NCBI GenBank assembly: GCA_030608565.1
Contig: JAUWDY010000006.1
Coordinates: 1 to 58,691, forward strand
Reading direction: 5' to 3'
Origin: Candidatus Bathyarchaeota archaeon
GTDB taxonomy: Archaea > Thermoproteota > Bathyarchaeia > Bathyarchaeales > Bathyarchaeaceae
Length of the DNA stretch: 58,691 nt
The notes beneath the pieces are model-generated. The model was not told where the DNA came from and ran no database searches. It saw only the letters and a list, made by a program, of their open reading frames with translations. The position numbers and the translations under genes are program-made. This document shows, piece by piece, positions 2,962 to 53,036 of this stretch (its first letter is position 1; each line of letters starts with the position of its first letter).

Positions 2962-3237
2962 TTAGGTTTTTAGTTGATATACTGTGTCGTTGGTCGGGGT
3001 TTTGCCTTCAGTGACTTGTTCTATCAGGTCAAACGCTTCGAGTGTGTCAATCCATGAGTTTACCGCGTGTGTATCCTTAACAGTCAATGTTTTTATTACG
3101 AGGTATCTTAACTGTTCACGGGTAACGTATTTATGTTCAAAATCTGGGTCGTCTCCGTATTCAACATAATCTTTAAATTCGGTTAGTGTGTTCGACAGGC
3201 GTTCTAACTTTTGTTTGAAAATTTTTGCTTTTTTCAT
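2962..3237 (-). CDS. Small winged-helix-like protein
   Basis: A 91-residue protein whose C-terminal two thirds (VTREQLRYLVIKTLTVKD, then VNSWIDTLEAFDLIEQV, then NDTVYQLKT) follow the helix-helix-wing order of small archaeal plasmid and viral winged-helix regulators. The ATG is preceded by AAGGAGCG, and a TATA-like CGTATATAAG lies about 40 bp upstream, so this is the first gene of a leftward transcript. It may autoregulate the divergent promoter region that it shares with the rightward operon. The assignment rests on pattern, not on a named family. Confidence 0.5.
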   Translation of the reverse strand: MKKAKIFKQKLERLSNTLTEFKDYVEYGDDPDFEHKYVTREQLRYLVIKTLTVKDTHAVNSWIDTLEAFDLIEQVTEGKTPTNDTVYQLKT

Positions 3238-3273
3238 ATCAATTCGCTCCTTGCATAAAGTAACACACCCACA

Positions 3274-3283
3274 CTTATATACG
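3274..3283 (-). promoter_or_regulatory. TATA-like box for the leftward operon
   Basis: The minus strand reads CGTATATAAG. Its centre is about 41 bp before the ATG at 3237, which would put the transcript start just ahead of the AAGGAGCG ribosome site, the classic archaeal arrangement. Confidence 0.5.
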
Positions 3284-3348
3284 TTTTGGTGTCAATATTT
3301 GTTACTGTTCGTTGGTTCGAAGCCTGTTTAACATCGTTTTGCCGTGAT

Positions 3349-3366
3349 GGTTCGAATAACCGAACC
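3349..3366. promoter_or_regulatory. Inverted repeat, possible operator between divergent operons
   Basis: GGTTCG, a six-base spacer and CGAACC form a perfect dyad. It lies inside the 331-bp gene-free region between the leftward and rightward operons of the element. Related TTCGAA-containing words recur nearby (3315-3322, around 3449). A dimeric repressor site is the simplest reading, perhaps for one of the small HTH-like proteins encoded on either side. The rest of this gap shows only the two TATA-like boxes. Confidence 0.4.
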
Positions 3367-3550
3367 CTTATATATGGCAACTCACATAGGTTAACTCGCT
3401 CCTATATTGGGTCGTGGACGGTAAAGCTCACATATGTGCTTTATTCGTTCGAAAGCTAACATCACGGTTCACCGTTCACGACTTCAAGCTCATATTAATT
3501 TTACTTTTCAGCATACAAAATAACGACCACAACCTAAATAAGTATCAAAC

Positions 3551-3565
3551 TATATATTTTATATA
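3551..3565 (+). promoter_or_regulatory. TATA box of the nine-gene rightward operon
   Basis: The run TATATATTTTATATA just ahead of the first small gene is a strong archaeal TATA element. A start about 26 bp downstream of its left part falls at the TTG codon at 3581, suggesting a leaderless first gene. Confidence 0.5.
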
Positions 3566-3580
3566 TACGTGGTGTTGCAC

Positions 3581-3745
3581 TTGAAACAAAATGAAAAGGA
3601 TAATTGGACGACGGTGGCAATCAGTAAAGAGGATTTACGAGCCGTTCATTTTTTGCAGAATCACTTACAATGTGACACGGTTGAACAAACTGTTCATAAG
3701 CTGATTCGTAGAGCCTTAGAACTTTTCGGTTGTGCGTTACCATGA
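3581..3745 (+). CDS. Small ribbon-helix-helix-like protein (54 aa)
   Basis: The frame reads KQNEKDNWTTVAISKEDLRA and continues with HFLQNHLQCDTVEQTVHKLI before RRALELF. A short beta strand (TTVAISKEDL) followed by two helices, the second with TVEQTVHKLIRRALE, is the typical pattern of RHH/CopG-like repressors. The TTG at 3581 fits the TATA box spacing; GTG codons at 3569 and 3572 are in frame and could add four residues. Its TGA overlaps the ATG of the next gene (ATGA), so the two are translationally coupled. It is the first gene of the operon and may regulate it. Confidence 0.55.
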   Translation: MKQNEKDNWTTVAISKEDLRAVHFLQNHLQCDTVEQTVHKLIRRALELFGCALP

Positions 3746-4368
3746 CAGAGACCGACGAACAAATCGACGCACGAAATCGTCAAGAGTATCTGAATACTCG
3801 TAAGGTGATTCATGTGATAAAAAAAGAGGACGACGACGACATCAAAAAAATGCGTGATATAGCGGTTACGGAAAATTTTCAGCTTAAAGTTGAGATGTTA
3901 AAATCGGAGTATCCCGATTTTGCGGATAAGTTGGACGAGGAAATCAATGACCCAGCCGATTATGAAATTTGGAAAGAAAAGTTGAGAGAACTGCATCAAA
4001 AACGTAAGCCCAAGGGTCAAGCAAGGTTAGAAACTAAAAGGGGAAAAGGGTCTTCAATTTACGAGGCTGAAACACACGAGCAATTAATTTCGACGATTTA
4101 CGACCAACTTGAAGAGCAGAAATATTTCAGAGATGTTGGTTCTAAGAAATTCGATGAACGGAAGCATGCAGAGCTTCAAGGTATGAGTGATAGGTTACTT
4201 GAATCATGCATATCTGGGGAAAAATTGAGGGGTCAAACACGGGGAATTTACGCATGGCAATGTTTCAAGTGTAAAAAAACCGTGGTAAACACCATGACAT
4301 GCCCTCATTGTGGCTATGTTAACAGAAGCCCTTCGAGTGTAAGAGGACGTGTTGATTATGTCGGATAA
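3742..4368 (+). CDS. Element protein with C-terminal zinc ribbon (208 aa)
   Basis: ATG at 3742 overlaps the stop of the preceding gene. The protein is highly charged and helical over about residues 1-160, then ends in a zinc ribbon: WQCFKCKK with CxxC, ten residues, then CPHCGYVN. This is the archetypal archaeal ribbon found in DNA- or RNA-binding proteins. An in-frame TTG at 3730 would add four residues, but ATGA coupling makes 3742 likelier. The main domain is unrecognised. A nucleic-acid or protein-interaction role within the element is inferred from the ribbon and charge only. Confidence 0.65.
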   Translation: MTETDEQIDARNRQEYLNTRKVIHVIKKEDDDDIKKMRDIAVTENFQLKVEMLKSEYPDFADKLDEEINDPADYEIWKEKLRELHQKRKPKGQARLETKRGKGSSIYEAETHEQLISTIYDQLEEQKYFRDVGSKKFDERKHAELQGMSDRLLESCISGEKLRGQTRGIYAWQCFKCKKTVVNTMTCPHCGYVNRSPSSVRGRVDYVG

Positions 4369-4984
4369 CGAGGTTAAAGTCGGTAAAAATTTACTGATTC
4401 AAATGTTGATATACGCTCCTTGTGGACGCACGGTTATAGACGTTCGGAACCGTCAATTATCAGCCAAAACTAAAATCGGAGACATAGAGTTTTTCCATAT
4501 AGTTGGGGGTAGGGATTTAAGCCGTGATTTTTGGCGTGAGGTTACGCTGTATAAGACTGTTAGAAGAGGACGAAAATCAGAGCATGTAGAAATCGGAAAA
4601 GTTTCGGGGTTCGCTCTCATTGCTAAACACATGAGCATAACGTTACCGATTTCAACTGAACAATGTAAAGCCCTTTTAATTCCTTTTTTGGAGAAAGGGG
4701 TTGAGAGAATCTACCTTTACACAAAAGCAGGGAGTTTAGGGCTTCCGAGCATGATAGAGCCCGAATGGTGCAAGGATAGATACGGGTTTAAAAACAAGTG
4801 GCTTGCAAGTGGCACGAGACCCGTTAACGATTGGTCTTATGTTAATCAGCTACTTAGAGAGAGGGGTTCGCCTTATCGTGTGCTTGTTCCAAGTTTAGAC
4901 CTTGGAGCCGAAAAGGAGCTTGAATTAAGCGTGGAATTGAAAAAAGCCTTGAAAAGAATCGATTTGCTTGAAAAAGAGCGTTAA
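4358..4984 (+). CDS. Hypothetical element protein (208 aa)
   Basis: This frame overlaps the end of the previous gene by 11 bp; ATG 4358 is preferred, though GTG 4349 and TTG 4352 are in frame. The sequence is a mixed alpha/beta protein (GKNLLIQMLIYAPCGRTVID, then a FHIVGGRDLSRDFWREVTLY region) with a helical charged tail (SVELKKALKRIDLLEKER). It has no clear catalytic motif and no zinc ribbon. It is the largest globular member of the operon and so a reasonable candidate for the functional core that the small ribbon proteins serve, but no function can be read from it. Confidence 0.6.
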   Translation: MSDNEVKVGKNLLIQMLIYAPCGRTVIDVRNRQLSAKTKIGDIEFFHIVGGRDLSRDFWREVTLYKTVRRGRKSEHVEIGKVSGFALIAKHMSITLPISTEQCKALLIPFLEKGVERIYLYTKAGSLGLPSMIEPEWCKDRYGFKNKWLASGTRPVNDWSYVNQLLRERGSPYRVLVPSLDLGAEKELELSVELKKALKRIDLLEKER

Positions 4985-4997
4985 ATGAGGGGTTTGA

Positions 4998-5165
4998 ATG
5001 AAATTGGTTACTGGGGTTTGTAAGGGTTGTGGAGAAAAGAAACTCGTATCACATACTTCAAGATTGTGTAAAAGTTGTAGTTGGAATTTTGGCGAAATTT
5101 GGGTTTTGCATATGACCGAAAACATTAATGATGAATGGGAGTGGAAGCTAATTGACTCTAAATGA
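4998..5165 (+). CDS. Small zinc-ribbon protein (55 aa)
   Basis: A short frame starting MKLVTGVCKGCGEKKL contains CKGC (residues 8-11) and CKSC (24-27), a compact ribbon of 12-residue spacing, followed by a Trp-rich segment. The run GAGGGGT ends a few bases before the ATG and is a strong ribosome site. The gene overlaps the next one by 14 bp. It belongs to the tightly packed operon and is one of its five zinc-ribbon products. Its role is unknown; DNA or RNA contact is the family-level expectation. Confidence 0.7.
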   Translation: MKLVTGVCKGCGEKKLVSHTSRLCKSCSWNFGEIWVLHMTENINDEWEWKLIDSK

Positions 5166-5463
5166 AACTGATAAAGAACTCCAAGAGACCATAAATTTGG
5201 AGAACATTGCGAGGTCTCGTTGTTACCGTCGTTGGTCTCGCATAAAATACGTCGAATTAAGTGAAAGTCAGAGAAAATCGTTTATGGAAAATTGTATGAG
5301 GGTTGAGGTTCAAAAGCTTCGAGATAAGCAAAAAAATGACTTAGCTATCGAAGGGAGAAGGTCATTTGAGGAAATGCAAAAGGAACGTAATAGAGAGCGA
5401 TTAAAAGAAATTAGGGAATTTAGAGAGATGGATGAAAGTTTGTCGGGGATGTGGAACAAATGA
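5152..5463 (+). CDS. Hypothetical charged helical protein (103 aa)
   Basis: TTG at 5152 starts inside the preceding gene, with GGAGTGG about seven bases upstream. The product is almost entirely charged helix (KSFMENCMRVEVQKLRDKQK, then FEEMQKERNRERLKEIREF), consistent with a coiled coil. Cysteines are not arranged in CxxC pairs. Its stop overlaps the next ATG (ATGA). It could be a structural or scaffolding partner of the ribbon proteins; nothing more can be said. Confidence 0.5.
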   Translation: MTLNETDKELQETINLENIARSRCYRRWSRIKYVELSESQRKSFMENCMRVEVQKLRDKQKNDLAIEGRRSFEEMQKERNRERLKEIREFREMDESLSGMWNK

Positions 5464-5681
5464 CTGAGAAAAAAGGCTTTACGACGGGGATAAGAACGGT
5501 CAAAATGGAACCTGAAACGGCGAAAATCATATGGGTAAGGGTTTGTCGAGCGTGTAAAGCCGAATTTAGGACGGACGACCCCAAAAAATGGGTTTGTGAC
5601 GGCTGTTTGAAAACTTACGAGTTTGAGCTTGGTGGTTTACGGCTTGTGAAACGAGTAGAGGACGGTGTGAAAAGTGACTGA
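5460..5681 (+). CDS. Small zinc-ribbon protein (73 aa)
   Basis: ATG at 5460 forms an ATGA overlap with the previous stop; an in-frame ATG three codons earlier (5451) is the alternative. The protein carries CRAC and CDGC separated by about 14 residues (VCRACKAEFRTDDPKKWVCDGC), a classic ribbon. The flanking strands (KIIWVRV and FELGGLRLVKRV) fit the three-stranded sheet of such folds. It overlaps the next gene by 8 bp, reinforcing translational coupling. Function unknown. Confidence 0.65.
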   Translation: MTEKKGFTTGIRTVKMEPETAKIIWVRVCRACKAEFRTDDPKKWVCDGCLKTYEFELGGLRLVKRVEDGVKSD

Positions 5682-6126
5682 GGACGTTAAAGAGTTAGCT
5701 CGTGAGGTTGCTTTAATGACTTCACGACGGAATTTTTCAAGGGCTTTAAGTCGAATCGAGGGGAATCAGAAAATCATTTATGAACGGCTTGACGGGTCAG
5801 TTGAGGGAATTCAAAAAGAGCATGCACAACTCGTTAAAGGGTTGTTAGCCGATTATCGAGAGTTGTTTCAGTCAAAAATACGGCTTGTAGACTTACATCA
5901 CGAACAACAAAAACAATTAACCCGTGAACTCAAAACCAAACTCAAATCTTACAACACGCACATACGACAACTTAAAAAAACAATTCGAGAAGCTGATATT
6001 GCAAGGAAATTTTTCGATTTTGAAGCCAAACGACTAAACAAAACAATACTTGAATACAATGAAAAAGTGACCGAGTTGAACGAGTTATTATTAAAGGTGC
6101 GTGAAGGTGGTGAAAAGAATGGTTAG
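5674..6126 (+). CDS. Coiled-coil protein (150 aa)
   Basis: GTG at 5674 overlaps the previous stop by 8 bp. From about residue 20 to 145 the sequence is one long amphipathic helix with heptads of Leu/Ile and many Lys/Glu/Gln (QQKQLTRELKTKLKSYNTHI, then IRQLKKTIREADIARKF). There is no membrane segment or cysteine pair. Such proteins act as scaffolds, tail or fibre components, or accessory factors. In this operon it stands between two zinc-ribbon genes. No named family is recognised. Confidence 0.6.
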   Translation: MTEDVKELAREVALMTSRRNFSRALSRIEGNQKIIYERLDGSVEGIQKEHAQLVKGLLADYRELFQSKIRLVDLHHEQQKQLTRELKTKLKSYNTHIRQLKKTIREADIARKFFDFEAKRLNKTILEYNEKVTELNELLLKVREGGEKNG

Positions 6127-6400
6127 TAAGGAAAAAGTTAGCCGTAGAGAAAATCCGTTCACTAACGAGAATGTGACGGATAGACGCACGGGAAGAGAGC
6201 CGAATGTTGACCCAAACATACGGGATATCGATAAGATAGGTGTAGAAACCCCGACTCGAAAAGAACAAGATATGGAATACTGTTTAGTGTGTCAAGAGCT
6301 TTATAGCGGTCAAAAATGTCCTCGTTGTGGATACAGCAGAGAGGACATTAAGAAAAGGGCGTTCTCGGCTCATCACAGCACGGGAGACAGTGGATTTTAA
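6119..6400 (+). CDS. Zinc-ribbon protein (93 aa)
   Basis: ATG at 6119 lies within the end of the preceding gene; GTG at 6101 is an in-frame alternative that adds six residues. The N-terminal 50 residues are polar and probably disordered. The second half has CLVC and CPRCGY (MEYCLVCQELYSGQKCPRCG), a ribbon resembling rubredoxin-type knuckles in archaeal transcription proteins. Its TAA overlaps the ATG of the following gene as TAATG. Probably co-translated with its neighbours; function unknown. Confidence 0.65.
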   Translation: MVSKEKVSRRENPFTNENVTDRRTGREPNVDPNIRDIDKIGVETPTRKEQDMEYCLVCQELYSGQKCPRCGYSREDIKKRAFSAHHSTGDSGF

Positions 6401-6555
6401 TGAACTGTCAATATTGTGGTGAACCCTCAGAGTTGCCTATTTGTGAGGATTGCCTAACTAAAATATCCGTAAAAGCATTGAAAGCATTAAGGTTAGAACA
6501 CAGTATCGACGGTCAAGTCGTAGCCGTAACAAAATTTAGACTAACTGAATCATAG
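6400..6555 (+). CDS. Small zinc-finger protein (51 aa)
   Basis: A 51-residue frame that starts MNCQYCGEPSELPICEDCL at the TAATG overlap. CQYC and CEDC nine residues apart form a minimal zinc finger; the remaining 30 residues are a basic helix and a strand (VKALKALRLEHSIDGQVVAV). It is the last gene of the nine-gene run; the next 672 bases hold no gene. It is the fifth zinc-binding product of this operon. Its function is unknown. Confidence 0.65.
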   Translation: MNCQYCGEPSELPICEDCLTKISVKALKALRLEHSIDGQVVAVTKFRLTES

Positions 6556-7227
6556 TCAAAGATGGGTTTGGTTCGTTCTTCAAACCGTCCAAACCACAAA
6601 GCTGTCTACTGGGAGTCAAGCACGGATTTCCACGACTTGACTCCACATATTCATTTTTACATTTTTAAACCAAGTCAACGAGTCAACCAAGCAACTAACT
6701 AACAACCCAAATAATAACAACTTATAAAAAAACTGAATAGGATACTCAAAACACAACCCCGTTCTTAAAGCCGTTTTTAAGGTTTCTTTTTTGATTCCCC
6801 GTTCATAACGGTTAGATTACCCGAACCCGTTCGAAATAGCCGTTTTGGAGAGGGTGGATAGGTTTTTGAGGGGGGTTTGACATTTAATGACAATATTATC
6901 GTCGTTTATTATCGAACAACGAGCAACCCCCTTTAATGTTACTGATTCAACTCGTAGCCCTGTATATGGAGCGACGATAAATCAACATTAAAATAACATT
7001 TTAGGACATACGTAATAATTAATAACACAGAGGGTCTCTATACAGCCCTTTCATGTCTACTGGTCTATATTCAAATTATTTTTGTGTTGTTGTTTAAGTT
7101 GTTGTTTATGGGTTTGTTTGTTAGTTGATAATAGTTGTTTGTTGGTTGTTGGGTTATGGTGTGTCCTATAGGGTCACGTTTGACATGTTGAAAAGTGAGA
7201 GATAGAGACGGCGGAAAAAAAGCCGTC
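6556..7227. other. 672-bp non-coding region between convergent genes; candidate origin or att region
   Basis: No credible gene is seen here, although convergent genes need only a short gap. It contains hairpins (GGTTTGG 6565-6571 with CCAAACC 6589-6595; the 9-bp stem at 6612-6644), a CAAC-rich tract (about 6678-6722) mirrored by a GTTG-rich tract (about 7079-7155), and an inverted pair TTATCGTCG (6896-6904) and CGACGATAA (6972-6980). The word CTGATTC-A-ACT-C-GTAGC at 6942-6957 resembles 8477-8493 on the other side of the integrase. This looks like a replication or recombination region. Confidence 0.45.
6612..6644 (+). terminator. Hairpin followed by T-rich DNA, probable operon terminator
   Basis: GGAGTCAAG at 6612-6620 pairs perfectly with CTTGACTCC at 6636-6644 around a 15-base loop. 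It is followed by ATTTTTACATTTTT. Placed 57 bp after the last operon stop, it is well positioned to end the transcript; archaeal termination needs only the T-run, so the hairpin could have another role. Confidence 0.45.
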
Positions 7228-8391
7228 TTAAGTTTGGTTTTTGGTTAACTCTTTTACTCGTTGCTCGATAAAGTCAAGTAGCTTTTTTTGTTTGTCTTGT
7301 TCTTGGAGTCGGTCTTCAAGGAATTGTTTCTGGTCTTCAAGGGCTTTTAACACTTCACCGAATTTTCCTTGTAGTTCGGTTAACAGTTTTGCTTGTCCGA
7401 GAACCGTTTGTTTCAAGTCTTGAACGTCGGTTTTGAACATTAAGCCATGATTGATTGACAAGTATGAAAAAGCTTTTTCGTAGCTCTCTTCTATTAGCAA
7501 TTGTGACAGTTGATAGGCTTGTTTGGCTCCTTGTCTTTTATGACCGAACATACAATCTTTTATTTCAGCGTCAAGTTTTGCTCTGAGTAGACCGTTTTTG
7601 TAACTGTCTCGTAAGTTTTTGGTTTGAAACTTTTTAGCTTTTTCTTTTCCGAACGTCGTTAAAGCCAGATTTTTCATTGATTCATTGAGGAATTTAGGGT
7701 TGATTTGGGTCTTATTCCTTGTCACCAATAAGAAGCCTTGTTTCGGATTGTTGCGTCTCTCCAAGCTCAGTCTAATATCGTGAATGGCTTCGACGGATAA
7801 GCATGTTTGTTGTATGATATTGGTTTTTTCTCTCATTTTTGCTATGTAGTGGTGACTTTCGCACGTATAGATTTCTGGGAAATCCTGAATTTTCAATTCG
7901 CACAAGTCGATAGGGCTGAATCCCGACTGGTAAAGCACTAATAATCGACATTTTTCATCAAGTGTGGCTCTTTTATAGAGCATTCGAACCTCAGTGTTCA
8001 TTAAGACCCATTTCAACGAAACCTTTTCTCGTTTTGACGGCTCTACTTTTAATTGCCCTTTTCCGAACCGTAAGCCGAGGTTGTTATGTGCGAAAAAGGA
8101 TTGTGTTCGTTGTAGCATGCTTCTTACGGTTGTGCTTGCGTAACGTCTTTTATCGTCCTTGTTAGTCTCTGATTCAAGGCTGTTTTTCCAAGCTATCAAC
8201 TTATCCTCGAAGTAACGTCTAACTTGAGGGTTTGTGCTCTGAAAGTCTTTAACCCGTTTCTGTATCTGAGCGTCGGGGGTCATATTGATAAATCCGAGCC
8301 ACAATTCAAACGGCTTTATACAGTTCTCTCGTGTCCTCTCTGAGATTTCAGAAAACCACTTTTTAACCGATTCGTCATTTCTCCAAGTCAA
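7228..8391 (-). CDS. Tyrosine recombinase / integrase with C-terminal coiled coil
   Basis: A 387-residue integrase. The N-terminal SAM-like core-binding part covers about 1-115 and the catalytic part about 125-310. Box II reads TKNLRDSYKNGLL with R261, followed by GHKRQGAKQAY with H284 and the probable nucleophile Y293; the K-x-x-R form replaces the usual H-x-x-R. The first catalytic arginine position (usually GLR) reads GFS (157-159), so R-I appears missing. Residues 320-387 form a long coiled coil not typical of XerC/D. TTG 8391 is chosen because AGGAGTG lies eight bases upstream. It should integrate and excise the element. It is the last element gene before chromosomal DNA. Confidence 0.8.
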   Translation of the reverse strand: MTWRNDESVKKWFSEISERTRENCIKPFELWLGFINMTPDAQIQKRVKDFQSTNPQVRRYFEDKLIAWKNSLESETNKDDKRRYASTTVRSMLQRTQSFFAHNNLGLRFGKGQLKVEPSKREKVSLKWVLMNTEVRMLYKRATLDEKCRLLVLYQSGFSPIDLCELKIQDFPEIYTCESHHYIAKMREKTNIIQQTCLSVEAIHDIRLSLERRNNPKQGFLLVTRNKTQINPKFLNESMKNLALTTFGKEKAKKFQTKNLRDSYKNGLLRAKLDAEIKDCMFGHKRQGAKQAYQLSQLLIEESYEKAFSYLSINHGLMFKTDVQDLKQTVLGQAKLLTELQGKFGEVLKALEDQKQFLEDRLQEQDKQKKLLDFIEQRVKELTKNQT

Positions 8392-8482: not shown

Positions 8483-8501
8483 CGACTGGTAGCTCCCTAG
8501 G

Positions 8502-8530
8502 TAGGGGGTCTATAAGAGAGAGAAACACGC
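8502..8530 (+). promoter_or_regulatory. G-run/GAGA-run motif ahead of fumarase alpha
   Basis: TAGGGGGTCTATA followed by AGAGAGAGAAACACGC. Near-identical motifs occur at 11101-11125, 27701-27725, 53008-53036 and 53064-53090, each pointing toward the start of a housekeeping gene. Here the gene start is about 150 bp downstream. The whole 290-bp gap (8392-8681) also holds the integrase promoter and the hairpin at 8450. Confidence 0.5.
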
Positions 8531-8681: not shown

Positions 8682-9566
8682 ATGACAAACCAAAACATCG
8701 TCGAAAACGTTGCAGTTAAACTTTTACAACTAGCAGTAACAGAACTGCCACAAGACGTAAAAGAAGCCCTTCAAAACGCGTATCGCCAAGAAGAAAGTAA
8801 AGCAGGTAAAACCCAGCTGAAAGCCATATTAAACAACATCGAATTGGCTGAAAAAACGCGCACACCCATGTGCCAAGACACTGGAGTAATCATTTTCTAC
8901 CTAAAAGCCGGTGCTCAAGTGAAAGGCTTAAACAAAATCGAAGAAGCCCTCCGCAACGCCACGAAAAGAGCCACAAAAGAAGTGCCTCTACGCCCAAACG
9001 CCGTTAACCCATTCACTCAAAAGAATACAGGAGACAACACAGGAAGATTCATCCCATTCATCCATTGGGAAATAGTGCCTGGAAACGACATTGAAATCAC
9101 AGTTTTTCCAAAGGGAGGAGGATGCGAAAATGTCTGCGCATTAGGCATGCTGAGACCCGGCGAAGGCGTAAAAGGTTTAAAAAAGTTTGTTGTAGACACG
9201 ATAATAAAGGCCGGCGCAAAGCCATGCCCCCCAAACATTATAGGCGTTGCAGTAGGAGGCGGCGCAGACATCGCAATGAAATTGGCAAAAGAGACTTTGT
9301 TAAGACCACTGAATCAGTCGAACCCCGACCCTAAACTCGCAAAGCTTGAAAAAGAACTGCACGAAGCAGCAAACTCCACAGGGATTGGACCAATGGGACT
9401 TGGCGGCAAGTTCACGGTGCTGGGTGTTCACGTTGAATATGCTGAGAGGCATCCCGCGTCTTATCCTGCAGCGGTCGCGGTTCAATGCTGGGCTGCAAGG
9501 AGAGCTTCAGCACGTATTCATCCGGATGGGACAGTTGAATACTTAACTCATAAGCGGCCTAAATGA
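8682..9566 (+). CDS. fumA: Fumarate hydratase class I, alpha subunit
   Basis: Fumarase converts fumarate to malate in the TCA cycle, using a [4Fe-4S] cluster. The 294-residue protein is a full-length alpha (TTD-alpha/FumA N-terminal) subunit. TPMCQDTG with C64, PCPP with C182 and VQCWAARR with C269 have the spacing of the three cluster ligands in class I fumarases. KGGGCEN (144-150) is the conserved glycine-rich substrate loop. GGAGG lies eight bases before the ATG. The beta subunit is encoded 2 kb downstream at 11590 on the same strand, separated by an opposed radical-SAM gene. The related L-tartrate dehydratase alpha cannot be excluded by sequence alone, but fumarase is the usual archaeal function. 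Confidence 0.9.
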   Translation: MTNQNIVENVAVKLLQLAVTELPQDVKEALQNAYRQEESKAGKTQLKAILNNIELAEKTRTPMCQDTGVIIFYLKAGAQVKGLNKIEEALRNATKRATKEVPLRPNAVNPFTQKNTGDNTGRFIPFIHWEIVPGNDIEITVFPKGGGCENVCALGMLRPGEGVKGLKKFVVDTIIKAGAKPCPPNIIGVAVGGGADIAMKLAKETLLRPLNQSNPDPKLAKLEKELHEAANSTGIGPMGLGGKFTVLGVHVEYAERHPASYPAAVAVQCWAARRASARIHPDGTVEYLTHKRPK

Positions 9567-27069: not shown

Positions 27070-27618
27070 TTACTTTATGTAATCTGGAGTCTTCAAATCT
27101 ATTAGCTCCATTTCAGATAATCCTCTTTTCATTCTGTTTGAATGATCATCAAGGGGCAGATACGCGACTTCTGGGAAGTATGTGGTTATGCCTTTTTCTG
27201 CCATTATGGTGGCTGGATGATCGTTTCCCAAGGCTAATCTGCAGACTTCGCAGGTTAGTTCTCGCACCTCATCTTCATCGATGTATCCAAGAGAGTGTAG
27301 ATACTCGTGGAGAAACAAGTGGAAGCAGTAAGCGTTGAAAATTCGCCTTTCCTTGGTTTGGAGAGCGGTCTCAAGGGGAGTTCGGTTCACAACTATGATG
27401 TTTGAGCCTACAGGGTGAAATGCGCCTATGAAATATCCTCTCTTCATTCCCAAGTCAGCTAGGCCGAGCATGAGACCGGCTCTGTGCATGTTCAGGAACC
27501 TCTTTACGGCCTCCTTCACTAACTCGAAAACTTTGGCTAACGTGGTGCAGTTGTCAAGTTTTTTGTCGAGTCTTTCTTTGGTTTCGTAACTCACAGTTCT
27601 AACGCTCCTAGGAATCAC
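27070..27618 (-). CDS. Putative HExxH zinc metallopeptidase-like protein
   Basis: A 182-residue protein with HLFLHEYLHSLGYIDE, in which H104-E105-Y-L-H108 is the zincin signature HExxH. A further acidic residue (E115 or E119) and the CEVC pair at 124-127 could complete metal binding. No signal peptide or membrane segment is seen, so it is probably cytoplasmic. It resembles small archaeal proteins of unknown function rather than a named peptidase family. The G-run/GAGA motif lies 83-107 bp upstream. Convergent with ileS. Confidence 0.6.
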   Translation of the reverse strand: MIPRSVRTVSYETKERLDKKLDNCTTLAKVFELVKEAVKRFLNMHRAGLMLGLADLGMKRGYFIGAFHPVGSNIIVVNRTPLETALQTKERRIFNAYCFHLFLHEYLHSLGYIDEDEVRELTCEVCRLALGNDHPATIMAEKGITTYFPEVAYLPLDDHSNRMKRGLSEMELIDLKTPDYIK

Positions 27619-27700
27619 TACGTTGATTCGAAAACCGTTTCTTAAAGTTTGTGAATGAAAATTTAATTCATTTGCTAGGTGACTGTTACGTTATTTACGT

Positions 27701-27725
27701 TATTCTCTCTCTTATTAGCCCCCTA
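27701..27725 (-). promoter_or_regulatory. G-run/GAGA-run motif ahead of the HExxH gene
   Basis: The minus strand reads TAGGGGGCTAATA then AGAGAGAGAATA. It has the same orientation relative to the gene as the copies at 8502, 11101 and 53008. The surrounding 218-bp gap also holds ACTTTTGAAGTGTCATCT (27799-27816), an 18-bp near-copy of DNA inside the neighbouring protease gene (27910-27927). Confidence 0.5.
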
Positions 27726-27836
27726 TACCCGGGGGGGTAGTTGGTTTCTCACTGAGCCGCCGCGCGCACCGTGGAGAGAGAGGTTTTTGATAGACACGAC
27801 TTTTGAAGTGTCATCTGAAGTGTCTATAGCTTAGAA

Positions 27837-28925
27837 TTAAATTAAGAAAGGAAATGAGAGGAAAAATATTATAGCTATCCCGAGAGCAACGAGTTTTCTC
27901 CAAGTTGTTACTTTTGAAGTGTCGTCTAACGGGCCGGGGTGTCGCATAGATGAAAAGAAAATCGCAATTATTGCCCATATGAGGAACGCTTCCCAGATTA
28001 AAAGGCCTAAAATCAGAAAGGTTATGATTGCAAGATACGATATGATGCTACGTGTCCGTTTCCCAAAGAAAGTTCGTGCGATGTGGCCGCCATCGAACAT
28101 TCCTACCGGTATGAGGTTGAGCACTGTAATAATCATTCCAACCCAACCCGCGAAGGCAATCGGATGTAATAGTATCGCAAGTACGGGTTCTGTTGTTTGG
28201 GGTGGAATCGCTTCTAATGGGGGGAACGCAAGCCCGATTAACGAAAATAATAGTGGCGCTGGTAGTGTGAGGCTGCCTTCAGGAATCCAAGCGTATCTTG
28301 AAAGGGGGAGGCCTATAATGGTAACAGCGATTGCTACAAGAAAACCTACGATCGGTCCAGCGGACCCTATGTCAAATAAGGCGTCTTTGTTTGGTGGGAG
28401 AGATTTTTGTTGGATGACAGCTCCAAAGGTGCCGATGGGTGGGGGGCCTGGTATAAAATATGGATAAGTGGCTTCGACATGGTGTTTGTCAGCTGCTATC
28501 TTGTGTCCCATCTCATGTGAGCCTAAGATTGCTATGATGGCAGCCGCAAAAGTCACCATCCCTACGACATCCTGCGATTGGAAATATCCAGCAATCAGCA
28601 TGGTTCCAAGTGTTGCAAAAAATAACACTATATTTATGATGGGTCGGCTGGGTTTCATGGGAGGTTTCTGTGTGACTTGAAGCACGGTTTTGCCGTTTCT
28701 TTTTCTCAGAACGGGAACGAAACCTTGGGGGTCCAAACGTTTGATGAGCCTCAAGAAAGCTGTCTTTGAGTCTTGTCGCAGCTTCACATAGAAAGTTGGT
28801 ATGTTGTATTTTACGAAGCTGTCTTCTACTTCGAATTCTTGCTCAACTGTGGTGCGGAGTTGTTCAAATTGGGTAACCTCGTCTAAGGGTTGCGTGGAGG
28901 AATCGTTGGAGGATACGGCGCTCAT
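27837..28925 (-). CDS. Site-2 protease family (M50) membrane metalloprotease
   Basis: Intramembrane zinc protease. The 362-residue protein has a cytoplasmic N-terminal domain (about 1-90) followed by six to seven transmembrane helices. SHEMGHKIAADK places HExxH at 137-141, and LNLIPVGMFDGGHIARTFFG carries the conserved NxxPxxxxDGGH that completes the zinc site. The PYFIPGPPPIGTFGAVI loop is typical of archaeal and plant EGY-like S2P proteins. It may cleave membrane-bound regulators; no partner is obvious nearby. Confidence 0.9.
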   Translation of the reverse strand: MSAVSSNDSSTQPLDEVTQFEQLRTTVEQEFEVEDSFVKYNIPTFYVKLRQDSKTAFLRLIKRLDPQGFVPVLRKRNGKTVLQVTQKPPMKPSRPIINIVLFFATLGTMLIAGYFQSQDVVGMVTFAAAIIAILGSHEMGHKIAADKHHVEATYPYFIPGPPPIGTFGAVIQQKSLPPNKDALFDIGSAGPIVGFLVAIAVTIIGLPLSRYAWIPEGSLTLPAPLLFSLIGLAFPPLEAIPPQTTEPVLAILLHPIAFAGWVGMIITVLNLIPVGMFDGGHIARTFFGKRTRSIISYLAIITFLILGLLIWEAFLIWAIIAIFFSSMRHPGPLDDTSKVTTWRKLVALGIAIIFFLSFPFLI

Positions 28926-29284
28926 GTTTGTTCATTAGTGAACTATAGCTGGAGATATTAGAACCTTGTGTAAGATAAAGAACACTTGTCCTGTGCATAT
29001 GGATATGGTCCTGTTTCTGGAACTCTCTAAATTGAGAAGAGTAGATAGCATGAACCAATGGAAACTCAACTTATAATCTTCATCTACTCGTTAAGATTTT
29101 TATCGGCTTGTCTATACATCACATTTATGTACAAGACTATTTGTGTTATCTTCAAAAATATGGAAAGTTTAAAAAATGGAGATGGGGTGGATGACGATGT
29201 GTCTTGCAGGGTCTTTGTGGCATATTACGTAAGCATTTCAGCTGATTCTTCAGTCGTGCGTGTCTGAAGATTCACTGATGTCGG
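28926..29284. other. 359-bp gap without a convincing gene
   Basis: This gap holds the promoter side of the site-2 protease gene and the downstream side of the secreted-protein gene. A 69-residue plus-strand frame with a hydrophobic start (29058-29267) exists, but it has no ribosome site or recognisable pattern. AT-rich DNA around 29080-29170 includes TATA-like words. Nothing else is evident. Confidence 0.4.
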
Positions 29285-30781
29285 TTACATGTTGTTTATT
29301 GAATCACATATGTTCTTCGCGTGTTCTAACTCTTCCCGGCTGCTGTCTGGATTTCTCAGTATGTTTTCCACTATGGTCATGGCGTCGCCGAAAGTCATGT
29401 CTGGGTGTCCATCGTAGTCTATGTCAACCATTTGAGACGGTGTAACAGCGTTGTCAGCCCAGTTCAACCAGCTAGCTAAGCATTGTTTGAGGGCTCTTGT
29501 TCTCATGTCGTTATCACGAGTCCATAGGAGATCGTGTGCACTTTCCATAGTGAGAGTGAAGTTCTCGCTGAATACCGTTGATTCCGCATTTATTCTTGCT
29601 ATATAGCCTTCTAGGATTGATTCCACGTAGTCTTTGAATGTTCCTTTGCCCACCTTCCAAACGTAGAACACGTGTTTCCAGTAGCCAATGGTTCCGAAGT
29701 CGCCAGTGCCTTCTTCTCTGAAGACTGCTTTGAGGTCGCCACCACACGTTATGGTGAAGGTTACAGGATTAGCGTACTCGTCAGGATCAAGCGCAACGTT
29801 ACCAACGATTTCCCAATGATCAAACACCCAGCCTAGAGGACAGTCAGCATAAGCTGAACCTGAAGTACCATAGGGGAAGGTGTCACTATCGCCGTTAACG
29901 TAGGTGCTGCCTTCAAAGGTGATGTTAAAGCTAGAGCCAACAGGATCAGTGTAGAAATTCACCGTACACTCAACAGTTCTTGTGGCTATGGCGTCTATTT
30001 CTAGGGTTGTGTCGCCTGTGTCTGTACGCGATTGAGTTATGCCGTCGTCTTGTATTCGGATTTTGTCGATGTATGTGCCGTCGAAGCCTGTCATGCTGTC
30101 TAGATCAATTGCTATCATGGTATCATCAGCAGCATTCGGTGTTGGCGGGTCGACTTGGAGGTCATCGAGTGTGATACTTATGCTTAGGCCTAACTTGTTG
30201 CTTAAAGTTATGATCATGCCGCTGAGCTCTGCGTCTTCAAAGATGAAGATCTCATATCCTTCGATAGCTTCTTCTGCTTCTTGTGCGTTGACAGCTCCGT
30301 CAGGGCCTACAACTCCATCTGCTTTTATGCCATCTGGATAAATCACGTATGCTAGAGCGAGGTCGAAGCCTCCTTCGAAGTATCCTCCGCTTCCTGTGTC
30401 GAAGTTTGCTGCGTCGTCGCCTGAGTTTGCAATCATGCCGAAGTCGTCGATGGCTGAAAGCCCTTCAAGGACCTCAGGTAATGTTGTATCTTCTTGTCCA
30501 GCGGTTGGTTCGCTTAGTCCGTAGTCCCAGTCGTAGACCTCTCCTGATGAGTCACCTATGTAATCAAGTAGGTCATAGAAAATTGCTCTTTCTATTATGT
30601 CGTCGGTGGGTGCTCCAGCTGGAACGGTGGTTCCTGCATTGAATAGCCAAACTCCAAACGTGTCGTCTTGTGTGCCCGTGATGCTTTGTTGAGCTGTTAC
30701 GATATTTAGATGCAAGGGTTCGATTAGTAGTACCGCTAAGAGTAGTAGAATCGCGATTAATGATTTTGCTTTACTTTTCAT
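29285..30781 (-). CDS. Secreted surface protein with dockerin-like C-terminus
   Basis: ATG 30781 (MKSKAKSLIAILLLLAVLLI) gives a clean Sec signal peptide ending near VTAQQ and is preceded by GGGAG; an upstream frame to 30847 adds no signal. The mature 470 residues are acidic. A middle part (about 165-270) contains beta-rich DDDG-type segments. A beta-repeat resembling bacterial InlB B-repeats follows (VNFYTDPVGSSFNITFEG to GWVFDHWEIVGNV, about 270-360). The end has VDIDYDGHPDMTFGDAM, an EF-hand-like DxDxDG loop as in dockerins. No C-terminal membrane anchor is present. Probably a secreted or wall-associated protein; function unknown. Confidence 0.7.
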   Translation of the reverse strand: MKSKAKSLIAILLLLAVLLIEPLHLNIVTAQQSITGTQDDTFGVWLFNAGTTVPAGAPTDDIIERAIFYDLLDYIGDSSGEVYDWDYGLSEPTAGQEDTTLPEVLEGLSAIDDFGMIANSGDDAANFDTGSGGYFEGGFDLALAYVIYPDGIKADGVVGPDGAVNAQEAEEAIEGYEIFIFEDAELSGMIITLSNKLGLSISITLDDLQVDPPTPNAADDTMIAIDLDSMTGFDGTYIDKIRIQDDGITQSRTDTGDTTLEIDAIATRTVECTVNFYTDPVGSSFNITFEGSTYVNGDSDTFPYGTSGSAYADCPLGWVFDHWEIVGNVALDPDEYANPVTFTITCGGDLKAVFREEGTGDFGTIGYWKHVFYVWKVGKGTFKDYVESILEGYIARINAESTVFSENFTLTMESAHDLLWTRDNDMRTRALKQCLASWLNWADNAVTPSQMVDIDYDGHPDMTFGDAMTIVENILRNPDSSREELEHAKNICDSINNM

Positions 30782-31048
30782 GTTTCTTTCTCCCTTTCTC
30801 TTCTGATAGAACCCGAGGAGCGGAGTTCTATTTAAACGATATTGCAAATGCGGATACGTCTACAACGCTCTATGCGTATGCCCAAGTCTTCAATGCGCGT
30901 GCAACATACATGCAAAAGCAACGAACAAACTTGACTGGGAAATAGCTGTTGACTCCAAGAAATTCTAAACGATCTATAGCACTCTCCTGCATGTACAAAA
31001 CGCATTTAATACCCCCTTCATATCCACTATTTTTAGGAAGGTTAGATT

Positions 31049-31528
31049 ATGCGTAAATTGCTATTCTCAATTCTAGTTTCTGCCTTAATCTTATCTTTCT
31101 GTATCAATGTTTGGCAAGCCTATAATATCCAAAAATTAAACTCTGAAAATCAAGTTCTAAATTCGCAGCTTAGTGATTTTGATCATATAAGAGAACCGAC
31201 GGTGCATTTGATTGATTATGAATGGGCGGTTACCATTTTGGATTGGGAACATCAGCGTGTTGATGTGAACTTTACGCTTTTCAACTCTGGGCTTTCTTCA
31301 GCAGAATTTACTTTGTCTATAGATCTTTTTGATTGTAGCAAAGAGGATTACCATAAACATGTTGATTCAAACGAATGGGAATTAACAATCAATGGGACAA
31401 CCGTTGAAACCTTCAATCGAAGATTTTATCTTACTAAACCAGCAGAGTCATGGCATATTGACTGCATCGAATTTTACTCCCCCTATTTCTTTGAAAATTC
31501 CAAGGGATACGAATCACCTATTAGTTAA
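31049..31528 (+). CDS. Membrane-anchored or secreted small protein
   Basis: A 159-residue protein with an N-terminal hydrophobic helix (LLFSILVSALILSFCINVWQ, residues 4-23) that is either an uncleaved anchor or a signal peptide. A short coiled coil follows (IQKLNSENQVLNSQL), then a beta-rich extracellular domain (VDVNFTLFNSGLSSAEFTLS) with two NxT/S-type glycosylation sequons. AGGAAGG precedes the ATG. The domain looks like the immunoglobulin-like folds of archaeal envelope proteins; no family is named. The 267 bases upstream hold the promoter region it shares divergently with the secreted protein. Confidence 0.6.
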   Translation: MRKLLFSILVSALILSFCINVWQAYNIQKLNSENQVLNSQLSDFDHIREPTVHLIDYEWAVTILDWEHQRVDVNFTLFNSGLSSAEFTLSIDLFDCSKEDYHKHVDSNEWELTINGTTVETFNRRFYLTKPAESWHIDCIEFYSPYFFENSKGYESPIS

Positions 31529-31571
31529 CTCTCATGCATGCTAGATAGAAAAAAAGAAGGGAAGATTACGC

Positions 31572-32072
31572 TCAATCCCATGTTATTTCGTAGCTGAAAG
31601 TTCCTTGTCCCTCAAAATAATAGGTTGCGCCAATGTTTCCAACGTAGTGGCTCCATACGTTCCCAGCCTCTATGGTTTTGAAGACATACATTCCGCCACC
31701 CAAATCCCATGTCATTTCTATTTTCACGTTGTAAGCGGTTTCCGTGCCAAAGTTTATCATGAAGCCTTCTATATCGTGCCTATCGTCTCCAGGCCAAACA
31801 GGCACGAAGGTTTCAGTAATCAAGACTTTCAGATCTGCTGGTAATGTTCCTGGAGGCCCTTCTGATCCTTGTGGTCCGGTTTCTCCTTGTGGTCCTTGAG
31901 GTCCAGTATCTCCTTGTGGTCCGGTTTCTCCTTGTGGTCCAATATCCCCTTGTGGTCCTTTGGCCAAGTCCGTTTGGTCAATAATCACGGTTGAGAGGAG
32001 AGTGGAAATTATGATTGCACCAACAAGCCCTGCCACGAGTATTGCTCCTGATATTCCTTTACTATCTGACAT
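31572..32072 (-). CDS. Collagen-like, pilin-like membrane protein
   Basis: A 166-residue protein in three parts. The head MSDSKGISGAILVAGLVGAI (then a further hydrophobic run to about 31) resembles archaeal class III (type IV pilin) signal segments, in which cleavage follows the K-G before the hydrophobic helix. Residues 39-74 are twelve uninterrupted Gly-X-Y triplets (GPQ, GDI, GET, GSE, GPP), a collagen-like stalk. Residues 78-166 are a beta-rich C-terminal domain. It should form a trimeric surface stalk. Collagen-like proteins are uncommon in archaea. The coding DNA of the stalk is a tandem repeat (about 31845-31960). Confidence 0.75.
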   Translation of the reverse strand: MSDSKGISGAILVAGLVGAIIISTLLSTVIIDQTDLAKGPQGDIGPQGETGPQGDTGPQGPQGETGPQGSEGPPGTLPADLKVLITETFVPVWPGDDRHDIEGFMINFGTETAYNVKIEMTWDLGGGMYVFKTIEAGNVWSHYVGNIGATYYFEGQGTFSYEITWD

Positions 32073-32930
32073 TTCCTTTTTGCCCCTTTTTCCCTATGTG
32101 GTTGTTTCATATCCTGATAACAAATATTTAATATTATCCTAATAATGCATAATGGTCGTTCTCAATATACAAAATGAACAAGGTTTAAGGAAATTTGACC
32201 CATGCATGCCATGGTTGATTTTGGCTCCAAAACCCTCCAAAAAAAACACACAAATAGATAAATAAATTTGTTTTTTATGTATGCATGAACAAAACGTCTT
32301 ACCGTAAAAATACGGTTTAACAAAATACACCATTTTGTTAATTTACCTATGAATATACGTCATTCCCTTCTTCTAAACTATAAAAAAACGGGGGCTTTAT
32401 TATTATATAATATAACAATAGGGGTGTAAAAAAAATCCAGATCTGGATGCATGCAGAAAAGTTTATGATTGAGAGAGCTTCATGCTTTTTTCCGTGTTCA
32501 CGTTTGATCCAGACGAACCCTCCACCCAGTTACAGAAAGTTACGGCATCGTAATCAAAAGTTACGGCAAAGTTACAGGAAAGCTGTTACGTGTTACTACG
32601 GACCAGTTACAGGTGGTTGCTACAACACCATGGTTTTTTGGCTTCGACGACTTCGAACATTACAGCAGTTACAACAGTTACGAGGGCCTGTAACCTTCGT
32701 TACCGTTCACGTGCGGGGAGAATAGAAAACAACATTAGAAACAAGGTGCAGCCCCTCTAGTTTCTCAAGGGACTTAACCGAGGTTACAGGGGCAGTAAAC
32801 GTTAGTAACAGGATCCTCCAAGACCACTGCATTCGTTTCAGCCTCTATCCAGTCTCTTCATAAATGCATGCATGTGGTTAAGTGACTGAAGCTGTGTATG
32901 CGGTTAAGCCGTTAAGGATTAAACATTATA
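32073..32930. other. 858-bp gene-poor region rich in GTTAC words and palindromes
   Basis: There is no convincing gene. The 92-residue frame at 32447-32725 is built from the repeats themselves. From about 32530 to 32820, GTTAC (often GTTACAG or GTTACGG) or its complement recurs more than a dozen times with irregular spacing. TCCAGATCTGGA (about 32436-32447) is a 12-base palindrome. ATGCATGC-type palindromes lie at 32201-32209, 32447-32454 and 32864-32874. It may hold regulator-binding arrays, a non-coding RNA or decayed genes. Confidence 0.45.
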
Positions 32931-33248
32931 ATGGTATGCTACTATGTAGATTTCCCGGAGGTAACGCAGGAGTTTGCCATTTCTCAGCAAGAGAAGCTAG
33001 TTATGAAGTGGCCCTTAACCTTGCAGATTCACGAAGAATCTTACAAGTATGATCCTGAGCTTCTTTTGAGTAGTTGGAGTTTCAGTTATCCGTTGCCTCA
33101 GTTGCGTGGTGTTACGAAGAGTCTATATTGCAGAAATGAACAGATACTCTGTAAGCTACGTGACTATGAGACTCTTCGTAAGTGGAAGGAAGCGTTTGAT
33201 GAAGCCTCATTTCATATTGACTTGATTCTGAAAGGTGTTATACCCTAA
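32931..33248 (+). CDS. Hypothetical protein (105 aa)
   Basis: A soluble, well-mixed 105-residue protein (YYVDFPEVTQEFAISQQEKL, then the MKWPLTLQIHEESYKYDPEL stretch, helical end WKEAFDEASFHIDLILKG). There is no signal peptide and no cysteine motif. The start is ATG 32931 next to TATAATGG, so it may be leaderless. Codon choice looks like coding DNA. No family is recognised. It stands alone between surface-protein genes. Confidence 0.45.
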   Translation: MVCYYVDFPEVTQEFAISQQEKLVMKWPLTLQIHEESYKYDPELLLSSWSFSYPLPQLRGVTKSLYCRNEQILCKLRDYETLRKWKEAFDEASFHIDLILKGVIP

Positions 33249-33425
33249 GTAATTTTCTACGAAGAGCCTCTTCGTAAAACCGTCAATATTAGTTTTTCAT
33301 CAAGTTAACTCTCATTATTCTTCCGTTGGGTGTGGGATCGCCATCTTATTTCCTCTTGATAGGCATATGTCCCCACTCACCAGATCAATTTTCTTATAAG
33401 GATCGATCCCCCTCCAATGTAGAAT

Positions 33426-52716: not shown

Positions 52717-53007
52717 TCTGTTAACTCTTCGGGACTTTTAGAGCGCGTGGTAACTAATTGAACTCATCTAACACGTATGACACATTCGTAAGATATTAAA
52801 GGAAATATTGTCAATTTCTCAAAAGGTGAACTGAAATGGGAAAAATCGATGCATGCATGCCAAAAACTTCATGTGACACACACTTGCTTGCTACTCACGT
52901 CCATTTTCGGTCACACCTAATTGTAGAATTGGTGTAGCAACATAAATGAACTTTGTCATCATTTTATGGTGGCTTTATGATGACTTTTGCTACAAGACCC
53001 TTATAGG

Positions 53008-53036
53008 TAGGGGGTCTAGAAAGAGAGAGATATAAG
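53008..53036 (+). promoter_or_regulatory. G-run/GAGA-run motif ahead of the MBL gene, distal copy
   Basis: TAGGGGGTCTAGA followed by AAGAGAGAGATATAAG. It is almost identical to the minus-strand copy at 11101-11125 and lies about 130 bp before the MBL hydrolase start. Confidence 0.5.

Follow-up and report, generated by a model that had tools for sequence, protein, structure and literature searches.

A dense run of small zinc-knuckle genes in an integrated mobile element of a Bathyarchaeia chromosome

The stretch of 58,691 nt from position 1 of contig JAUWDY010000006.1 of a Candidatus Bathyarchaeota archaeon (assembly GCA_030608565.1; genome of 1.76 Mb; this whole stretch is hereafter the window) carries at 3581–6555 nine short genes on the forward strand, g1 to g9, five of which encode proteins with paired zinc knuckles. 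These nine genes belong to an integrated mobile element that also bears a tyrosine integrase and meets host DNA at about 8495. On balance, we think that they are probably the principal rightward operon of a cryptic element integrated in the Bathyarchaeia chromosome, a regulatory operon under the control of the ribbon-helix-helix (RHH) protein that g1 appears to encode.

Open reading frame (ORF) calls on the window place nine ORFs across 3581–6555, all where the original prediction had put them. Its description of frames running without gaps and mostly overlapping holds for seven of the eight joins, which are overlaps of 4, 11, 14, 4, 8, 8 and 1 nt in gene order, but not for that between g3 and g4, the sole gap (13 nt); similarly, ‘tiny’ fits six of the nine genes but not g2, g3 or g7. 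The operon opens with g1 (3581–3745; 54 aa), read as an RHH protein, whose TTG start lies soon after a TATA-like box at about 3550–3566 and whose longest frame runs from a GTG at 3569. There follow g2 (3742–4368; 208 aa), a charged protein with a C-terminal zinc knuckle pair (CFKC…CPHC), and g3 (4358–4984; 208 aa), which had been called globular, a description that was not borne out and that we correct here. Next come g4 (4998–5165; 55 aa), a zinc ribbon (CKGC…CKSC) with a PF14319 match (E = 0.004) below the cut-off; g5 (5152–5463; 103 aa), charged, probably helical and beginning with TTG within its 14-nt overlap with g4; and g6 (5460–5681; 73 aa), another zinc ribbon (CRAC…CDGC). Last are g7 (5674–6126; 150 aa), a probable coiled coil whose matches are weak and mostly to coiled coils, g8 (6119–6400; 93 aa), with a C-terminal zinc ribbon (CLVC…CPRC), and g9 (6400–6555; 51 aa), a zinc ribbon with CQYC…CEDC. 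A codon-usage frame test favoured the claimed frame in six of the nine genes, the others being g1, g4 and g5; it has little power on short ORFs.

The paired C..C knuckles of g2, g4, g6, g8 and g9, two in each protein, exceed chance: shuffling of residues within each of the five proteins yielded a knuckle pair in 0.1–0.9% of cases, and such a pair was found in only one of 269 non-chosen ORFs of the window and in three of 61 host ORFs. Motif and shuffle test thus both upheld the predicted five of nine. The two extra zinc genes predicted leftward are also present, both on the reverse strand (324–491 and 539–757), giving seven within 6.2 kb; the protein of 324–491, with six Cys, is the weakest zinc case (shuffle p = 0.074). 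Measured alike, the density of zinc genes is 8.2 per 10 kb in the element and 0–4.3 in twelve other Bathyarchaeia loci.

That the operon sits on an integrase-bearing archaeal element, as had been supposed, is supported both by the integrase and by a junction with the host. The integrase gene (7228–8391, reverse strand) encodes 387 aa with a coiled-coil-like C-terminal tail and matches PF00589 above the cut-off (E = 3.6e-7); its relatives in PDB are XerC-like proteins and XerA. Close relatives, 36–42% identical, occur in nine other genomes of the same order, and those from named records are all from ‘Candidatus Bathyarchaeota’ metagenome-assembled genomes. In a sister genome of the same genus (G028), with a 96% identical fumarase protein, the element is absent at that site: the two sequences become homologous at 8495, about 100 bp past the integrase start, and remain so rightward at 95%, whereas leftward of 8495 the two are unrelated, so the right junction of the element lies at about 8495. 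Host genes run rightward from a fumarase-like gene at 8682. The flanking gene of G028 had no match in G000. Position 8495 falls (at 8488–8512) inside a dispersed host palindrome, CTCCCTAGGTAGGGGG, and the junction motif TAGGTAGGGGG(N0–4)CTA(N0–2)AAGAGAGAGA has 12 copies in the host genome and none in the reversed control. Two copies of this motif, palindromic on the left side, lie in the window at 8498–8523 and 53004–53030, one of them marking the junction; palindromes judged similar by eye, without statistics, occur upstream of related integrases (G093, G058). No tRNA or Rfam RNA was found at the junction, nor were direct repeats of at least 14 nt at the ends of related elements in G012, G093, L163 and G049. 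The window begins at base 1 of the contig, and the left end of the element is lost beyond the contig edge; in the 8.5 kb seen, no hallmark genes of viruses, casposons or conjugation were found, the left part lying beyond the contig end.

The AlphaFold2 model of g1 (predicted local distance difference test, pLDDT, 84) shows an extended segment followed by helices 16–28 and 34–48, and most of its Foldseek matches, all of them weak, are DNA-binding proteins of the RHH or an RHH-like kind (TCP domains, Arc, NikR, MazE, ParD, TacA). Between g1 and the divergent gene m6 lies a putative control region (3238–3580) with two copies of TGGTTCGAA plus TCGTTCGAA at 3313–3453, TATATACGT boxes on both sides and TATA-like boxes that point toward m6 and toward g1; TGGTTCGAA-type boxes occur three times. 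Judged from these boxes, 3238–3580 is a possible RHH operator with promoters, and such repeated boxes next to a first gene of the RHH type suggest autoregulation. On the reading that we favour, the element, plasmid-like or provirus-like, would be integrated in the chromosome, and g1 would be made from a TATA-driven, possibly leaderless start and most likely repress the divergent promoter region. Repression would be lifted on excision or induction, whereupon the coupled genes would be translated together and the five zinc-knuckle proteins would serve as small adaptors that bind nucleic acids or proteins, most likely modulating transcription, replication or defence of element and host.

Gene order offers a further line of comparison, since the original prediction had looked to conserved synteny beside other integrases as support for a module. 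Via relatives of the integrase and searches from their neighbours, we reached seven loci in other Bathyarchaeia that share an opening order of RHH gene, a gene for a charged protein of 177–304 aa and one for a protein of 158–178 aa, often followed by zinc-knuckle genes: L060 and L194 (both in G047), L162 (G068), L163 (G075), L044/L045 (G093), and L053 and L195 (both in G049). Because the seven were assembled by seeking this order, their number is no independent test of it. L060, L162 and L194 have an extra small gene between the RHH gene and that of the charged protein. An integrase lies near the trio in L060, L163, L044/L045 and L053, and none was found in the examined parts of L162, L194 and L195. 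Closest in layout is L163, with an RHH gene, counterparts of g2 and g3, a 246-aa gene, several small zinc-knuckle genes and an integrase on the opposite strand. The first genes of the seven loci are RHH by our reading of their sequence pattern, a reading that no Pfam or PDB profile match bore out. In searches against a database of eight sequences, the loci were linked to one another through their RHH proteins (L044–L163, E = 1e-12; L060–L162, 8e-5), the counterparts of g2 (L060–L162, 4e-17; L053–L060, 6e-6) and those of g3 (L060–L163, 3.5e-13, with those of L044 and L162 weakly linked). Two of the loci carry further recognisable genes: downstream of the trio in L195 (2858–3328) is a neck protein (HK97 gp10-like; phrog_5, E = 3.3e-8), a hint of proviruses among these elements, and divergent from the trio in L194 (10920–12515) is a primase-helicase-type protein (phrog_864, E = 5.1e-63) with an ATPase nearby. 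ATPases of related elements gave one weak match in the genome of the window (E = 1.6e-4), on another contig and within a 625-aa frame, and had no confirmed match in IMG/VR. A second type of Bathyarchaeia element, near-identical in two genomes (L114 and L117), has an overlapping tiny-gene operon with a leading gene that is AbrB-like by pattern and with zinc-knuckle genes included.

The window agrees with L163, L060 and L044 in having zinc-knuckle genes downstream and an integrase nearby, and its opening gene order resembles that of the seven loci, but no homology to their counterparts can be recognised in its g2 and g3, and it has more zinc genes and, in the part seen, no ATPase. Several similarity tests were run on g1–g3 (hhalign pairs, hhalign ranking, profile search, phmmer and shuffles), and only g1 was positive, in phmmer and shuffles, a result to be weighed against the number of attempts: against the RHH family of the module, g1 was the best of 78 window proteins in phmmer (E = 0.007), and one of 500 shuffles scored as high. 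It has no C-terminal extension, and its sequence points only weakly to membership. The expected conservation of order beside other integrases is thus found in the architecture of seven Bathyarchaeia loci, at least four with an integrase, while homology in sequence is no more than suggestive for g1, with none seen for g2 or g3; the operon is not a demonstrated member of the module, for the architecture agrees and the sequences do not show membership.

Several observations weigh against an RHH-controlled operon of this kind. In hhalign, g1 ranked only 52nd of 64, and its best Foldseek match in PDB reached only E = 0.41. Against their module families, g2 ranked 3rd of 64 in hhalign and 4th of 76 in phmmer (not significant) and g3 3rd of 64 and 55th of 78, and a profile of the module g3 run on the window's own genome did not find g3 at E ≤ 1. 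Moreover, CxxC pairs could also serve protein–protein contacts or virion structure, and with the element truncated at the contig edge neither a replication gene nor a capsid gene could be recognised. One broader possibility, which we put forward tentatively and regard as rather less than probable, is that small integrative elements of Bathyarchaeia make up a widespread family, as yet without a name, in which an RHH-led operon is conserved and its proteins diverge too quickly for sequence searches to recognise; the zinc-ribbon genes would be expandable host-takeover adaptors, and the element in the window would be the most zinc-rich member.

The nine genes might instead be the structural or assembly operon of a provirus, in which g2 and g7 would be coiled coils of a scaffold-like kind, g3 would contribute a minor structural protein and the zinc ribbons would act as small cement or assembly factors. 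The continuation of the trio-order locus L195 into its neck protein would fit, as would a weak match of the L053 counterpart of g2 to an L166 gene that adjoins a putative prohead-protease-like gene. We nevertheless consider a provirus assembly operon unlikely: no operon gene had a convincing match to capsid, portal, terminase or tail proteins, none had a homologue among 50,697 phage records, and g3, like m5 and the integrase, had no confirmed match in IMG/VR, in a scan that detects only close relatives of single proteins. The tiny CxxC proteins of haloviruses, moreover, are regarded as interaction modules and are mostly encoded outside assembly genes (PMC7911831, PMC7230728), and the role of the zinc proteins here is most likely regulatory or host-interacting.

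Such a role could also be that of a counter-defence or host-takeover cassette in which every zinc protein would block a host target of its own (RNA polymerase, CRISPR, restriction), with little function shared among them. Small, fast-evolving, lineage-restricted genes in a mobile-element operon are typical of counter-defence cassettes, and g1–g9 have no convincing homologue even in genomes of the same genus: when all proteins of the element were searched as one chimeric query in 257 genomes of the class, nothing convincing emerged for g1–g9, m5 or m6, and convincing matches were confined to m3 and m4. No known anti-defence family was matched, PADLOC not having been searched, and we think such a cassette improbable. 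The one nominal hit of this kind, of g7 to phrog_4452 ‘anti-restriction nuclease’ (E = 0.008), is probably a coiled-coil artefact. The original prediction had raised the possibility of a nucleoprotein or transcription complex of several subunits, built around the 208-aa g3. The tight translational coupling of the genes would fit such a complex, but g3 had no homologue in genomes of the order or in the other searches made, no profile relation to its positional counterparts and no usable structure (an AlphaFold2 model made without an alignment had a pLDDT of 34 and was discarded); we found no support for a g3-centred complex and consider it highly improbable.

The remainder of the element seen comprises six genes on the reverse strand and two non-coding regions. 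The first two are the leftward zinc genes, m1 (324–491; 55 aa, three CxxC, zinc-binding-like) and m2 (539–757; 72 aa, zinc ribbon). Next are m3 (862–1725; 287 aa), HEPN-like by pattern (RSKVVH, RxxxxH), with a 54% identical relative in another genome of the class and no Pfam match, and m4 (1829–2332; 167 aa), with a PD-(D/E)XK-type nuclease motif (D48…E58-V-K60) and 51–53% identity to two Bathyarchaeia proteins. These two adjoin (862–2332) and may form a defence-type cargo, although the relatives found are unpaired; followed as leads to the operon, those relatives led to loci without a similar operon, and both genes were therefore treated as cargo. Beyond them are m5 (2593–2940; 115 aa) and m6 (2962–3237; 91 aa), winged-helix-like by sequence pattern only and divergent from g1. 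Iteron-like direct repeats, GATATTGATAGA, lie between m4 and m5 (2504–2584) and suggest a candidate replication origin. Between operon and integrase is a 670-bp non-coding region (6556–7227) with long imperfect inverted repeats, among them a 42-nt imperfect pair (6692–6733 and 7086–7127). A scan for bacterial promoters and terminators did not rise above shuffles, the bacterial promoter type not being the right one for an archaeon.

Sediments are rich in Bathyarchaeia, most of which have not been grown in culture, and little has been described of the mobile elements that they carry. Should the operon prove to be a kit for takeover or regulation, its small zinc proteins would make a compact toolset for probing archaeal transcription and defence; the loci compared here also illustrate that conserved gene order can hide behind absent sequence matches in fast-evolving genes of archaeal elements.

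Among known systems, the nearest class of element is that of the cryptic integrated elements of Thaumarchaeota (PMC6563490), which have an integrase, no virus or conjugation hallmarks and some RHH and winged helix-turn-helix genes, the hosts here being Bathyarchaeia; no zinc-ribbon operon is described in that work, where a text search for ‘zinc’ gave one abbreviation in a figure legend. Viruses of Bathyarchaeia (Huangdivirus and others; PMC10848311) share the host group, and some have integrases, but none of their structural proteins was recognised here. As for zinc genes, the tailed haloviruses (HF2, Serpecor1, Hardycor1/2) resemble the window in having numerous tiny genes that overlap and often encode CxxC motifs, in clusters that lie mostly apart from the virion assembly module. 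Within 3758–7781 of HF2 (4 kb) seven CxxC genes are annotated, and Hardycor1 has six at 27104–33327, runs comparable to the one here, so that the original claim of no described module of such density does not stand; by a strict paired-knuckle test the window is nonetheless denser, with five in 3 kb against two in 4 kb in HF2. The window differs from the haloviruses in host class, has no sequence similarity to them and shows no virion genes in the 8.5 kb seen. Operons of tiny CxxC genes are thus already known in haloviruses, and that of the window, with almost no recognisable relatives, is an unusually dense case.

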